Below, piece by piece: positions 24,822 to 47,555 of a DNA stretch of 64,000 nucleotides. Source of the DNA: Halorientalis regularis (lineage in GTDB: Archaea > Halobacteriota > Halobacteria > Halobacteriales > Haloarculaceae). How positions within the stretch are numbered: the first letter of the stretch is position 1; each line of letters begins with the position of its first letter. Under the pieces are notes generated by a model. It saw nothing but the letters and a program-made list of their open reading frames with translations. It did not search any database and had not been told where the DNA came from. The DNA lies in contig NZ_JALJCL010000017.1 in the NCBI RefSeq assembly GCF_023698535.1, positions 1 to 64,000 on the forward strand, written 5' to 3'. The position numbers were made by a program, and so were the translations under genes.

Positions 24822-26054
24822 ATGGATATTCGGTTCCTGGGTGGGGCTGAGGAGGTTGGGCGTAGTGCTGTTCTTGTCAACGGTTCTCTCCTTCTCGATT
24901 ACGGAATGAAAAGCGCCACCCCACCACAGTTTCCCGTGGCATCGCCCAGTCCCGACGCAGTCGTCGCCAGTCACGGCCATCTCGATCATGTCGGAGCGCT
25001 TCCGTCACTCCTCTCAGGTGATGATCGATCACCGATTCATTGGACACCGCCCACGCGCGAACTCGCGCTCACACTCGCTCGTGATACGCTCAAGCTCCAT
25101 GGCGGTACGTACAATTGTCCGTTCACCGAAGAAGAAATCAAACGCGTCACCCAGGTTTCCGAAACACACGGCTACCGTGAAACATTCGAAGCGGCAGATC
25201 ACCAGGTCACCTTCTATAACGCCGGCCACATCCCCGGGAGCGCGCACGTGCTGATTGACGATGGAGACACACGACTACTGTACACGGGTGATTTTCACAC
25301 CGAGGATCAGCGACTCGTCGCAGGTACGACCGCCCGTCCTGCCGCGGACGTTGTCGTCTGTGAGAGCACGTATTCCGATGTCACGCACGGAAATAGAGGA
25401 GACCTCGAAGAACAGTTTGCCACGAGTGTCAGAACGACCCTGTGGGAGGGGGGCACGGTTGTCATTCCTGCCTTTGCAATCGGGCGTACGCAGGAGCTGC
25501 TGCTTATCTGTGAGTCGCATGACATTCCCTGTTACGTCGACGGGATGGGCAAGCAGGTGACTGAGACGCTTCGTCAGTATCCTGCTTTCCTCCGTGATGG
25601 GGAGGCACTTCGGCGAGCAAAGTCACATGCTCGATTCGTTACCGGGAGAGATGGGCACCGCAAACGGATTGCCGAGAAGAACGTAGCTATCATCACCACT
25701 AGCGGGATGCTCTCCGGTGGCCCGGCGATGACCTACATCCCGGAGATCCGGGATCGGCCGGTGAACAAGATCGCGATGACGGGCTATCAGGTCGAGGGCA
25801 CGCCCGGTCGGGAGTTACTCGAAACGGGGCGCGCCGAGATCGACGGCCGCGTCATGCCCGTCGCCGCACAGGTCGAACAGTACGACTTCTCCGCCCACGC
25901 CGACCGGTCGGGCCTACTGGAGTTGCTCGACTCCTACCGGGACACACCGGTGCTGATCGACCACGGCGACAGATGTGGGGCCTTCGCCGACGAACTGGTC
26001 GCCGACGGATTCGAGGCGAGCGCGCCCGAGAACGGCGATCGGGTGTCGATCTGA
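24822..26054 (+). CDS. MBL/beta-CASP RNA-processing nuclease-like protein (chimeric gene)
   Basis: A 410-residue metallo-beta-lactamase/beta-CASP protein. Zinc motif HGHLDH is at residues 51-56, the beta-CASP domain has CESTYSDVTHG and IPAFAIGRTQELLL, and the C-terminus carries the late His motifs SAHADRSGLLELL and DHGDRCGAFADEL. Such proteins are exo- or endonucleases related to CPSF/RNase J. There is no N-terminal KH domain, unlike aCPSF1. Codon use changes abruptly near residue 297. Before it, third positions are mixed. After it, they are almost all G or C, as in host genes. The gene therefore looks recombinant, with host-type sequence only at its 3' end. Confidence 0.88.
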   Translation: MDIRFLGGAEEVGRSAVLVNGSLLLDYGMKSATPPQFPVASPSPDAVVASHGHLDHVGALPSLLSGDDRSPIHWTPPTRELALTLARDTLKLHGGTYNCPFTEEEIKRVTQVSETHGYRETFEAADHQVTFYNAGHIPGSAHVLIDDGDTRLLYTGDFHTEDQRLVAGTTARPAADVVVCESTYSDVTHGNRGDLEEQFATSVRTTLWEGGTVVIPAFAIGRTQELLLICESHDIPCYVDGMGKQVTETLRQYPAFLRDGEALRRAKSHARFVTGRDGHRKRIAEKNVAIITTSGMLSGGPAMTYIPEIRDRPVNKIAMTGYQVEGTPGRELLETGRAEIDGRVMPVAAQVEQYDFSAHADRSGLLELLDSYRDTPVLIDHGDRCGAFADELVADGFEASAPENGDRVSI

Positions 26055-26055
26055 G

Positions 26056-27918
26056 CTACTCTCGCCCGTCGTCGTCGACGTTCCCATAAGCGGTGGCGTA
26101 TCCCTCGTCTTCGCGCTCGCTCTCACGGGCCTGGAGGTTCTGTCGGGTGAACTGCGGCTCCGCACTGATTCCCGACCGACGCCGGAGCGACAGGTAGAGG
26201 CCCACGAGCGCGACCGGAGCGCCGAGTCCGGCGACGGCGGCGGCCGTCCGGTCGCCGGCGACGAACAGGACGAGTGTGGCGAACGCCGACGCGACGAACC
26301 CGAGCCCGAGGACGGCCTGCTTCGCGAGCTGGTCGAACAGGCCGTTCTCGTCGCCCAACGCCGTGCGTACGGTGAGGTCGTCCCTGTTCGCGCGGTCGAG
26401 CGTGCGCTCCAGTTTCGGGCCGGTCACCAGCAGGGCCTCGGTCGTGGCCCGCAACTCGTCGCCGGCGCGGTCGAGCAGTTCCCGGGCCCCCTGGCTCGCG
26501 TACCCCTCGGAGCGGACGTACTCGGTGACGAGTTCGATCAGGTCGAAGTCGGAATCGAGCGTCCGGCAGACCCCCTCCAGTACCGTCGTGATCCGGACGA
26601 TCAGCGCCAGGTCCTGGGGGAGACGGAGCGGGAACTCGTACAGTTCGGCCTGGAAGTCCGCGACGAGTTGCTGGACGCGATACTGGTCCACGTCCTGGCC
26701 CCGGAAGCTCTCGATGACGATCTCGAACATCTCCCGCAGGAGCCGGCGATCCGCGGTCGGGTCGAGCGCGCCCATGGCGACGAACGAGTCGATGATCCCG
26801 TCCACGTCGTTCTGAGCGATGGCGACGTAGAAATCGAAGATCTGCGCTTGCAGCTGCTCGTCGACCGTGCCGGTGATCCCGAAGTCGTAGAAGACGATGG
26901 TGCCGTCGGCCTGCACCGCCAGGTTCCCCGGGTGGGGGTCGGCGTGGAAGACACCATCCTCCAGCACCATCTCGATGTAGGCCTCGAAGAGTCGCTCGAC
27001 CAGGGCCTGGCGGTCGATCCCCATGGCGTCCAACCGCTCCACGTCGGTGATCTTCGTCCCCTCGACGTACTCCATGGTCAGCACGCGGGGCCCGGAGTGG
27101 GAGTCGACGGGCTCGGGCACGCGCACGCGGTCGTCGTCTCCGAAGTTCTCTCGGACGGTTCGAAGCATCCAGGCCTCGTGGACGTAATCCATCTCCTCGC
27201 GGATGGTCGTCGAGAACTCGTCGGCGAGATTTTCGAGGGTGAACGCCTGTCCCGGCTCGGCCCCCCGGATCAGCAGCGGCGTGAGCGTCTCGATCACCCG
27301 GAGGTCGGCCGCGACGCGCTGCCGGATGTTCGGCCGCAGGACTTTCACCGCGACGCGCTGGCCGTCCAGCCGAGCGGTGTACACCTGGCCGAGACTCGCG
27401 CCGCTGATCGGTTCCGTGTCGAAGCTGTCGAAGGCCTCCTCGACGGGCCCGAGTTCGGCCTCGACGATGGGTTCGATCTCGTCCCACGCGGCCGGGGGTA
27501 CACGGTCCTGTAGCCGCTGGAGGACGACGATGTACGGGCCGGGGAGCACGTCGGGCCGGGTCGAGAGGATCTGGCCGACCTTGATGAACGTCGGGCCGAG
27601 CGCCACCAGCGTGTCCAGCAGTTCCTCGGCGCGGTCGACCTGTGTCTCGTGATCGACCTGCCGACCGCGCCCGAACAGGAGAAAGCGCCGTCGGTCACGG
27701 GCGTAGGCGAGGGCGAGCGGGAGGAACTGCCGGACGACGACGAGGAGTCGCCAGGCGACGCGGAGACGGAGCCAGCTGCCGTCGGTCCCTGCGCTGGCCG
27801 CCCGGCTGTCGTCGCCGGTGGCAGACTCGCGGTCGCCGGCCGTCGTGGCGTCGGGTTCCGCGGCTGTTCGGCGTCGCGCCGACGCATCCGGTGTCACCTC
27901 CGCGTCCGATTCGGCCAT
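26056..27918 (-). CDS. ABC1/UbiB family atypical kinase
   Basis: A 620-residue protein with an acidic, disordered first 45 residues, an ABC1 kinase domain (about 100-430) and two C-terminal membrane segments (LGLGFVASAFATLVLFVAGD and AAVAGLGAPVALVGLYLSL). Family signatures present: KxGQ (FIKVGQILSTRPDVLP), Ala/Gly loop PISGASLGQVY, VAVKVLRP lysine, HADPHPGNL and FYDFGITG. Relatives regulate quinone and lipid metabolism at membranes. It is convergent with the MBL gene with one base between stops. Confidence 0.9.
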   Translation of the reverse strand: MAESDAEVTPDASARRRTAAEPDATTAGDRESATGDDSRAASAGTDGSWLRLRVAWRLLVVVRQFLPLALAYARDRRRFLLFGRGRQVDHETQVDRAEELLDTLVALGPTFIKVGQILSTRPDVLPGPYIVVLQRLQDRVPPAAWDEIEPIVEAELGPVEEAFDSFDTEPISGASLGQVYTARLDGQRVAVKVLRPNIRQRVAADLRVIETLTPLLIRGAEPGQAFTLENLADEFSTTIREEMDYVHEAWMLRTVRENFGDDDRVRVPEPVDSHSGPRVLTMEYVEGTKITDVERLDAMGIDRQALVERLFEAYIEMVLEDGVFHADPHPGNLAVQADGTIVFYDFGITGTVDEQLQAQIFDFYVAIAQNDVDGIIDSFVAMGALDPTADRRLLREMFEIVIESFRGQDVDQYRVQQLVADFQAELYEFPLRLPQDLALIVRITTVLEGVCRTLDSDFDLIELVTEYVRSEGYASQGARELLDRAGDELRATTEALLVTGPKLERTLDRANRDDLTVRTALGDENGLFDQLAKQAVLGLGFVASAFATLVLFVAGDRTAAAVAGLGAPVALVGLYLSLRRRSGISAEPQFTRQNLQARESEREDEGYATAYGNVDDDGRE

Positions 27919-27956: not shown

Positions 27957-28241
27957 GGTCGGCCGTTCGCATTCCGGCGGGTCTCCCTGGCTCGCGGTTT
28001 CACCGCTCGACCGTTCGAGGACTCCTTTCGGTCGTCCTCGCGACGCTCGAACTTCCCTGCTCGCGGTTCCGTTGTCACCGCTCGCACATCCGGGGACGCT
28101 CCCCCTGGTCGCGTCCCCCTGCTCGCGGCTCCTTCCTCGCCGTTCGCATTCCGGAGGTTCTCCTTTCAGTCGAACCTCCCTGCTCGCGGTTCCGTTGTCA
28201 CCGCTCGCACATCCGGGGACGCTCCCCCTGGTCGCGTCCCC
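27957..28241 (-). repeat. Tandem array of hairpins with conserved GA...GGA loops
   Basis: Read on the minus strand, four larger hairpins with 11-base loops alternate with four smaller ones. Larger stems lie at 28215-28241, 28154-28178, 28092-28118 and 28016-28040. Their stem sequences differ in three versions, all perfectly paired, yet the loops are GACCAGGGGGA (twice), GACTGAAAGGA and GACCGAAAGGA. Smaller stems at 28186-28204, 28126-28142, 28063-28081 and 27994-28006 have loops GACAACGGA (twice), GAGGAAGGA and GAA. A 64-base block is repeated exactly at 28055 and 28178. The first hairpin abuts the stop codon of the gene at 28242. No coding bias is present. Confidence 0.85.
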
Positions 28242-28523
28242 TTACTCCTCCACGGCGTCGGGACGAACCCGAAATCGGTTGTACCCGCCGTGTGAGAGTT
28301 CCAGCGAGTCGAGCCACCAGTTCCAGCGCTCGGCCAGGCCGTAGTCGTCGGGCGCGTCTTCGAGGTTATCGACGACGGCGTCGACGGTCAACTCGAAGCC
28401 CAACTCGGCCTCGATCTTTCCGGCGTCGGCCAGATCGCGGGCCTGTCGCGCCACGACGCGTCGCGCCTGCTCGGTCCCCCCGAAGACCGTTCCCAGTTCA
28501 CGTTCCAGCGAATCTCGGTCCAC
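28242..28523 (-). CDS. Small haloarchaeal hypothetical protein
   Basis: A 93-residue acidic, helical soluble protein. It begins at a GTG (VDRDSLERELGTVFGG) and includes DAVVDNLEDAPDDYGLAERW and a terminal SHGGYNRFRVRPDAVEE. There is no in-frame ATG near, so GTG is the likely start. The longer upstream frame is antisense-type shadow of the next gene. Its stop is followed at once by the hairpin array. Confidence 0.65.
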   Translation of the reverse strand: MDRDSLERELGTVFGGTEQARRVVARQARDLADAGKIEAELGFELTVDAVVDNLEDAPDDYGLAERWNWWLDSLELSHGGYNRFRVRPDAVEE

Positions 28524-28573
28524 ACGCTCGCTCCGGACTGGACATACTTGACGTTCTCGAAGCCGTCTCGGGG

Positions 28574-45710: not shown

Positions 45711-47555
45711 ATGAGTAGTCTCGCCGCGGGCCCGGTCGCGCTCGTGCTCGCCGCCGGCGGTGAGGGGCTGGTCCCGGAGGGACTGGCCCCGCTGGTGGCG
45801 CTCTTGGCCAGCGGCGTGGTCGGAATGAGTATCAAAAACGTCTTCGACTCGATACTCTCCGACGAGGACGAGGACGGCGATCTCGGCGGTGATATGGGCG
45901 ACGACATGGGTGGTGACATGGGTGAGGACGGCGGCCTAATGGCCGACGAGGGCGGCGACGACCTCGACGACTTGGGCGGTCTCGGCGGCGACGACGACCT
46001 GGGCGGGTTCGACGACGACGGCGGCGACGGATTCGGCGACATGGACGGTGGTGGCGGTGGCGGTCCGGCCACCGACGAGCTGGAGAACCGGCTTGACGAA
46101 CTCGAAAACGAAGTCGGCAGTCTCCAGTCGACGGTCAACACCGTCCGCAACGAGAACGAACAGATCGGCGAGCAGGTCCAGGACCTCGACGAGAATATCC
46201 GGAAACTGCTCGACATCTACGAGATGGTTACCCGCGGTGTCAACCCCTTCGCCGACGACATTCAGGGGGGTGCCGGTGGCGGCGGCTTCGAGGAGGGCAG
46301 TTTCGGTCTGTTCAGCGACGACGACGACGACGGTGACGACGAGGAGATCGACGACGAGATCGCCAACGCCGACGCCGAGGGCTTTTTCGACGAAGACCTC
46401 GTCGAGGACGAGGGCGACGACAGCGTGGAGGACGTCGGCGACGACTTCGGCGGCGTCAGCGACGTGGTCGACGACGGTGACGATGGCGGTGGCGACGACA
46501 TGGGCGAGTTCGACGACGATTTCGACGAGTTCGACGACGACGGTGACGACGATTTCGACGACGGCGGCGACGACATGGACGATTTCGGTGACATGGACGA
46601 CTTCGACGACGGCGGCGACGATTTCGATGACCTCGACGACGGTGGTGACGACCTGGACGACGGCGGTGACGGCGACGGCGGGAAGTCCTTCCAGGAACTC
46701 AAACAGGAGTACGAGTCCGGCGACGCCGACTGGGCCGAAGGCGAAGCGCCCGACGACGCCGCTGAGGAGGGGGCCGACGACGAGCCCGTGGTCGAACCCG
46801 CCGACGACCTCGAGGACGACGGCGACGACTTCGACGACGGGTTCGCGGACGGAGCCGACGACGACGGGTTCGGCGACCTGGAGGACGATCTCGACGACGC
46901 CGACGACGCGGACGGCGACGTGGTGGAGTCGACGGATGTCGACGACGTCCTTCCGTCTGCCGGCGACGACGGCGAAGCCGGTGAGGACGCCGACGACGCG
47001 GCCGACGGGGGCGGTGCAATGGCCGTCGAGGCCGAACCCGAGCCCGAACCGAACGTCGAGGCCGAATCCGCGATGGACCCGGACCCGGAACCGGCGGTGG
47101 ACTCGGAGTCCGAACCGGAACCCGAACCTGAACCCGAGCCCGCGGCCACGACGCCCGACGCACCCGCGACGGATCAGGCGAGTACGGCCGAGACGGACGG
47201 GGCCGCGACGGACGACGGGCCGGGCAAGCCCTACCTGCGGACGCTTCCGGACGGGTACGCGGCCGATCTGATCGTCATGGAGTGGCTGGAGTACCTCGTC
47301 GGGGAGTCGGACGTGCGCGAGACGGCCGAAGCCATCCAGTACTACGAGCGAATCGACTGGGTGAGCGAGTCGGTCGCCGGGGAGTTGCGGTCGTTCCTGT
47401 CGGGCTACGACGGCGGCGGGTCGGGTGGATCGCTGACGATCGATCACCACACCCAGAGTCTCCGCTACATCAGCCAACTGGGCGAGGACGCCGCCAACGG
47501 GGCGGCCATGCGACTGTTGGCCCGTGGAGGTGGTGGTGATGGGCTTCAGCGTTAG
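45711..47555 (+). CDS. arlCE: Archaellum switch protein ArlCE fusion
   Basis: A 614-residue protein. N-terminal region has a hydrophobic stretch (GPVALVLAAGGEGLVPEGL and LVALLASGVVGM). A first Asp/Gly tract precedes a coiled-coil ArlC-type domain (ENRLDELENEVGSLQSTVNT, VQDLDENIRKLLDIYEMVTR). A very long Asp/Gly/Glu tract follows (about 190-430) plus a Pro/Glu segment. The C-terminal ArlD/E domain reads LRTLPDGYAADLIVMEWLEY then HTQSLRYISQLG. It forms the cytosolic ring that receives CheY-P through CheF. The acidic tract is far longer than in non-halophiles. ATG is preferred over an adjacent GTG. Confidence 0.92.
   Translation: MSSLAAGPVALVLAAGGEGLVPEGLAPLVALLASGVVGMSIKNVFDSILSDEDEDGDLGGDMGDDMGGDMGEDGGLMADEGGDDLDDLGGLGGDDDLGGFDDDGGDGFGDMDGGGGGGPATDELENRLDELENEVGSLQSTVNTVRNENEQIGEQVQDLDENIRKLLDIYEMVTRGVNPFADDIQGGAGGGGFEEGSFGLFSDDDDDGDDEEIDDEIANADAEGFFDEDLVEDEGDDSVEDVGDDFGGVSDVVDDGDDGGGDDMGEFDDDFDEFDDDGDDDFDDGGDDMDDFGDMDDFDDGGDDFDDLDDGGDDLDDGGDGDGGKSFQELKQEYESGDADWAEGEAPDDAAEEGADDEPVVEPADDLEDDGDDFDDGFADGADDDGFGDLEDDLDDADDADGDVVESTDVDDVLPSAGDDGEAGEDADDAADGGGAMAVEAEPEPEPNVEAESAMDPDPEPAVDSESEPEPEPEPEPAATTPDAPATDQASTAETDGAATDDGPGKPYLRTLPDGYAADLIVMEWLEYLVGESDVRETAEAIQYYERIDWVSESVAGELRSFLSGYDGGGSGGSLTIDHHTQSLRYISQLGEDAANGAAMRLLARGGGGDGLQR

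Follow-up and report, generated by a model that had tools for sequence, protein, structure and literature searches.

Dispersed GA-loop hairpins with fixed loops and free stems in haloarchaeal genomes

A row of hairpins adjoining a stop codon in Halorientalis regularis was found to belong to an abundant set of dispersed palindromes with a fixed loop and a free stem. These are very probably a transcribed, REP-like repeat family of the haloarchaea, and they appear to be a common and apparently undescribed non-coding feature of the whole archaeal class. We assign a probability of about 0.45 to the full reading, in which a REP/BIME-like family is copied at the DNA level and its members also serve as 3'-UTR hairpins that tune the end of translation or the decay of the mRNA.

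Organization of the array in Halorientalis regularis

The window, which is the stretch of 64,000 nucleotides analyzed here (contig NZ_JALJCL010000017.1, positions 1 to 64,000), contained the tandem hairpins that the original prediction had placed on the minus strand. Eight were located in a row from 28241 to approximately 27976, and the MFE of the array was -147.5 kcal/mol, as compared with -118.3 +/- 4.4 kcal/mol for dinucleotide shuffles (z = -6.6). The upstream gene of about 98 codons (28242..28538, minus strand) had no Pfam family and was conserved with 57% to 94% identity across 8 loci, including 93% to 94% in H. persicus, H. pallida, and a Halorientalis MAG. Its TAA stop codon at 28244-28242 directly adjoined the 5' side of hairpin 1 with no gap, just as predicted. 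The downstream gene (26056..27918, minus strand, with a predicted start codon near 27918) was in the same direction and coded for an ABC1/UbiB-type kinase. A gene for a Beta-CASP/RMMBL metallo-nuclease of the RNA-processing type (24822-26054, plus strand) was convergent with the kinase gene by the array, which is probably a coincidence.

The large hairpins, here called type I, and the small hairpins, called type II, alternated along the minus strand. Hairpin 1 (28215..28241) and its exact copy, hairpin 5 (28092..28118), had 8-bp stems and the structure GGGGACGC-GACCAGGGGGA-GCGTCCCC, hairpin 3 (28153..28179) had an 8-bp stem and the structure GGAGGTTC-GACTGAAAGGA-GAACCTCC, and hairpin 7 (28016..28040), which was also present at two sites in genome G002, had a 7-bp stem and the structure CGAGGAC-GACCGAAAGGA-GTCCTCG. 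Hairpins 1 and 3 matched the covariance model with E-values of 1.5e-4 and 4.8e-5, respectively. Among the small hairpins, hairpin 2 (28182..28208) had the structure GC-GA-GCGGT-GACAACGGA-ACCGC-GA-GC and was exactly copied, loop GACAACGGA included, in hairpin 6 (28059..28085), while hairpin 4 (28121..28147) contained the loop GAGGAAGGA and one A-C mismatch in the stem, and hairpin 8 (27990..28010) consisted of GCGGT-GAA-ACCGC with a GAA triloop. All four large hairpins with 11-nt loops that had been proposed were thus located, but hairpins 1 and 5 are spanned by an exact duplication of a 65-nt unit (28177..28241 and 28054..28118, minus strand), so that the array contains three independent large stems rather than four.

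Conserved loops and variable stems

The type I hairpins followed the order stem, C, GA, N2, a GNA-type triloop, N2', GA, G, and stem', in which the outer stem was closed by a 5' C and a 3' G and the inner stem was made of 2 bp on either side of the triloop. Of the earlier rule that the loops start with GA and end with GGA or A, the closing GA...GA steps were retained, and the remainder was replaced by the sharper form GA/2 bp/triloop/2 bp/GA with the flanking C and G. The GACAACGGA loop fitted this grammar with a 1-bp inner stem, and the GAGGAAGGA loop had no pairing at the inner-stem position. The small hairpins, of the form GC-GA-RCGG ... CCGY-GA-GC, repeated the tandem-GA idea, some of them with two GA steps. 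The layout suits a GNA turn and tandem sheared G·A pairs, which the GA steps may form.

A scan of 0.76 Mb from the genome of the window and a congener for hairpins with a 2x2 mismatch between the outer stem and a 2-bp inner stem that is capped by a triloop identified 49 hairpins of the GA/GA mismatch class versus 7 of the next commonest type. In a larger set, both inner pairs were present in 62 of 85 11-nt loops with GA at both ends, as compared with 154 of 1700 loops with other ends. A C preceded the loop in 55 of these 62 cases, the triloop was GNA in 44, and the inner N2 pairs covaried as matched sets (CC/GG, GC/GC, AC/GT, and CT/AG).

The covariation count for alignment A1 was not relied on, since A1 had been selected for paired stems and the count was therefore circular. 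Sites were instead picked by the loop core CGA-N2-GNA-N2'-GAG alone, ignoring the stems, and at least 5 of 6 flanking Watson-Crick pairs were observed at 68 of 106 such sites versus none of 14 sites with AG/AG or GG/GG control cores. The stems were free to vary, with 67 distinct stems among 96, and contained few mismatches; G-U outnumbered A-C about twofold (10 vs 5), in small counts. Of 120 cases compared, the GA strand gave the more stable predicted RNA hairpin in 110. The sequence GCGAAGC, at the center of the loop seen most often in the haloarchaeal hairpins, is known as an extraordinarily stable hairpin in DNA (PMC6582339).

Distribution across genomes

The search with a covariance model that had been proposed as a check identified further copies. 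Matches to the model used for the genome searches, R1, the E-values of which are rough, were found in 23 of 29 relatives at E<=0.1. At E<=0.001, they were found in all 15 haloarchaeal genomes, from 11 genera, most of which had been chosen among genomes with R1 matches already seen. A phylum-wide sample yielded matches in 17 genomes of the same order, and one or two weak matches in each of five genomes outside it. Other copies, on which the original prediction had been made to depend, were abundant, with a density of 20 to 54 per Mb in most of the haloarchaeal DNA scanned and with tens of copies per genome. Halorientalis contained 34 to 54 GA/GA hairpins per Mb, versus a single one in 500 kb of GC-matched bacterial plasmid DNA.

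No GA/GA hairpins were found in the scan of a haloarchaeon with 49% GC, and no elements in plasmid stretches of 100 kb each from Natronococcus AD-5 and Haloferacaceae XH8. No match to the GA-loop hairpins was obtained in the phage collection searched, and the plasmid search gave one match only, within a P-type ATPase gene. The exact long pattern of the terminal module was present in only two of 195 genomes of the order, both from the same genus, which argues that the family is recognized by its structure and not by a long sequence. None of the Rfam covariance models matched the array, even near threshold. We found no description of the family by sequence or topic in the open papers searched, in line with the earlier remark that no such family was known, and a subscription journal may contain one. 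The covariance model is now available for the annotation of further copies.

Genomic placement and strand bias

The hairpins avoided divergent promoter regions, which contained 12 of 114 intergenic hairpins but 34% of the intergenic bases (p ~1e-8, a value that treats the hairpins of one array separately although these are not independent). Arrays were also found after stop codons elsewhere, mainly in genome G002. Within 0 to 5 nt after the stop codon, the GA strand was the mRNA strand in 13 cases and the opposite strand in 1, and within 0 to 15 nt the ratio was 18:1, where the gene ends were taken from a simple purpose-made ORF caller and G002 contributed most of the stop-adjacency data. At distances of more than 15 nt the bias was gone (40:36). 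The position near stop codons did not by itself differ significantly from that of other intergenic hairpins (13/58 vs 2/20, p = 0.33), and it is the asymmetry of the strand that stands out. Many arrays were antisense to, or distant from, stop codons.

Turnover of the arrays and insertions into reading frames

At the site orthologous to that in the window, the array varied between close relatives. H. persicus and the MAG LUM.68 contained arrays in which the first stem was different yet perfect, with GGCGACGC and GGGGACTC, respectively, each with its partner, in place of the GGGGACGC of the window. A single degenerate hairpin was kept in H. pallida, and the array was absent from H. salina and H. 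marina, in which the stop codon was followed directly by the downstream flank. Arrays within one genome shared stretches of 80% to 96% identity.

Some hairpins appear to have been inserted into the loops of others. A comparison of the window with locus L115 suggests that 27976..28057 (minus strand) may represent an older type I hairpin with arms at 28041-28057 and 27976-27989, the loop of which has been filled by hairpins 7 and 8; the arms are better matched in H. persicus. A similar arrangement was noted at G002:C1 near 1925621.

Hairpin units were also present inside genes, and they account for some of the odd charged inserts in haloarchaeal enzymes. The L-aspartate oxidase frame in genome G008 (L012, ORF from 1352) contained five in-frame 54-nt units, corresponding to 18-residue repeats, and TrpG (L009) contained an in-frame insert of hairpin units. 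An in-frame pair of units in an annotated P-type ATPase gene on the Halomontanus rarus plasmid NZ_CP119797.1 (L193:2448-2560) added a segment in which E, R, S, and D are frequent. Read by eye, the frame at locus L005 (G020:C1, ~89165-89343) passes through its first hairpin to a stop codon in the linker, and its original end seems to have given way to a hairpin unit.

It had been argued that stem changes in combination with a fixed loop imply either selection on or templated copying of the structure. The paired and free stems were borne out, whereas selection on the RNA alone was not evident. Taken as a gauge of RNA selection, the ratio of G-U to A-C mismatches leans, with its small counts, toward maintenance at the DNA level. 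Because G-U pairs were few, exact or near-exact copies were frequent, and the array was absent in two species, the stem changes are likely to result largely from templated DNA copying or hairpin correction rather than from slow RNA compensation, as far as such counts allow.

Comparison with known elements

Palindromic elements in Rickettsia are located in frame in conserved enzymes, to which they add charged peptide inserts. The haloarchaeal hairpins resemble them in the in-frame insertion into conserved proteins, a likeness at the level of features, but differ in sequence and loop rule, in their mainly intergenic arrays, and in their archaeal hosts.

A broader likeness was seen to the REP/BIME elements and REPtrons of E. 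coli, Pseudomonas, and Stenotrophomonas, which are also short, dispersed, mostly intergenic palindromes in arrays; REP/BIME elements likewise avoid divergent promoter regions and are often close to stop codons. The many dispersed intergenic copies of short palindromes agree with this. Unlike REP/BIME, the haloarchaeal family combines a free stem with a fixed loop, an inverse conservation rule that is unlike that of known REP families, and has units inside genes. REP palindromes have a conserved tetranucleotide, most often GTAG, immediately on their 5' side; in the haloarchaeal hairpins no base was consistently dominant at this position, with GTAG at -4 in 4 of 96 cases. REPs are also associated with a Y1 (TnpA-REP) gene in the same genome. 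No Y1_Tnp gene was found in genomes G005, G025, and G026, each of which contained many hairpin copies, and only frames of IS200 size (126 to 140 aa) were found in the other genomes. An association with a Y1 transposase was rejected because the element-rich G005 lacks the gene. Given the absence of the tetranucleotide, and of the transposase from an element-rich genome, the family should not be classified as REP, although it would operate in the manner of a REP array.

The archaeal REP predictions by RepRanger (PMC12306157) similarly count generic palindromes in archaeal genomes, in a text without reference to haloarchaea or to a GA-loop grammar of this kind. Kink-turns and other tandem G-A RNA motifs share the adjacent GA/GA steps that are able to form sheared pairs, but a kink-turn was rejected, given the symmetric 2x2 internal loop without a 3-nt bulge and the lack of an Rfam match. 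A CRISPR array was rejected as well, in that the units vary, the hairpins abut, and a repeat/spacer order is absent.

Possible functions and alternative explanations

We propose that the family would have expanded at the DNA level by tandem duplication, locus-to-locus copying, and insertion of modules into the loops of other modules, and that copies just after a stop codon would be retained mainly in the orientation that places the GA/GNA loops on the transcribed strand. The RNA at the start of the 3'-UTR would fold in vivo into a row of very stable hairpins, which by analogy with bacterial REP/BIME could hold back terminating ribosomes or retard 3'-to-5' decay, such that the yield of the upstream gene would be set relative to that of the downstream gene. 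REPs located <16 nt from the stop codon reduce translation in E. coli (PMC12306157). A pure shield against 3' exonucleases is less sure, since RNase R, an exoribonuclease of Haloferax, is able to degrade structured RNA at the optimal growth temperature (PMC12320835). We regard an effect of the hairpins on expression as tentative, with the odds slightly against it.

The hairpins may alternatively be selfish or neutral DNA without a host function, an explanation that we consider possible although not favored. Ultra-stable single-stranded hairpins of the GA strand, combining GNA mini-hairpins with sheared G-A pairs, would provoke strand switching in replication or repair and thereby duplicate units, hairpin-templated correction would keep the arms matched, and the placement would reflect where insertions are tolerated. 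The perfect stems with few one-sided intermediates, the stability of GCGAAGC as DNA (PMC6582339), the units within loops of other units, the in-frame coding inserts, and the patchy presence at the orthologous site are all consistent with this, but it does not by itself predict an 18:1 strand bias confined to the first 15 nt after stop codons. More doubtful is a hairpin code shared by the whole class, with the loop C-GA-NN-GNA-NN-GA-G as its inherited signal and a free stem; paired stems would be rewritten by DNA synthesis on the hairpin as template, and the same hairpins would serve at stop codons as strand-specific 3'-UTR signals. It is improbable that a haloarchaeal protein with affinity for RNA or DNA recognizes the GA/GNA loops and thereby marks 3' ends or organizes the chromosome, with the stems presenting the loop: the loop and the closing C-G are indeed fixed and the stem is free (67 stems in 96), yet intrinsic stability also explains a fixed loop. 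Marginally less probable again is a role in terminating transcription of the upstream gene or in processing its 3' end, which would fit the position after stop codons and a related subgroup with CTTTTTCGCCCACGTTTTTGCG 3' of the hairpin; however, termination needs no row of hairpins, and an intrinsic terminator was rejected for the window, where no T-run follows the array hairpins. Hairpins are abundant in GC-rich DNA and 'other' 2x2 hairpins were common, but chance palindromes of a GC-rich genome are refuted by the GA/GA class (49 vs 7), the paired flanks (68/106 vs 0/14 controls), and the single GA/GA hairpin in 500 kb of GC-matched bacterial DNA.

The REP-like family favored here opens 2 subjects to test, namely the control of translation or decay by an archaeal 3'-UTR structure beside the stop codon, and the spread of palindromes that stay perfect without a recognizable transposase.

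Related elements

A second dispersed family was observed, terminator-like in appearance, in which a near-constant CTTTTTCGCCCACGTTTTTGCG box lies between a GA-loop hairpin and another hairpin 3' of it, with a GAAAAAGGTGG-like sequence at the end (G002:C1 near 1573256, 1439255, and 1670195; G000:C41:77885-77911). The dense short tandem repeats of the CGACGA type at 45956-47214 in the window are probably an acidic, repeat-rich coding stretch. GA-loop hairpins were also located directly after tRNA-like 3' ends (GGTTCAAATCTCC...), enclosed by the T-arm sequence in an inverted copy, at G002:C1 near 888819-888988 and 1387020 and at G010:C1 near 684012.
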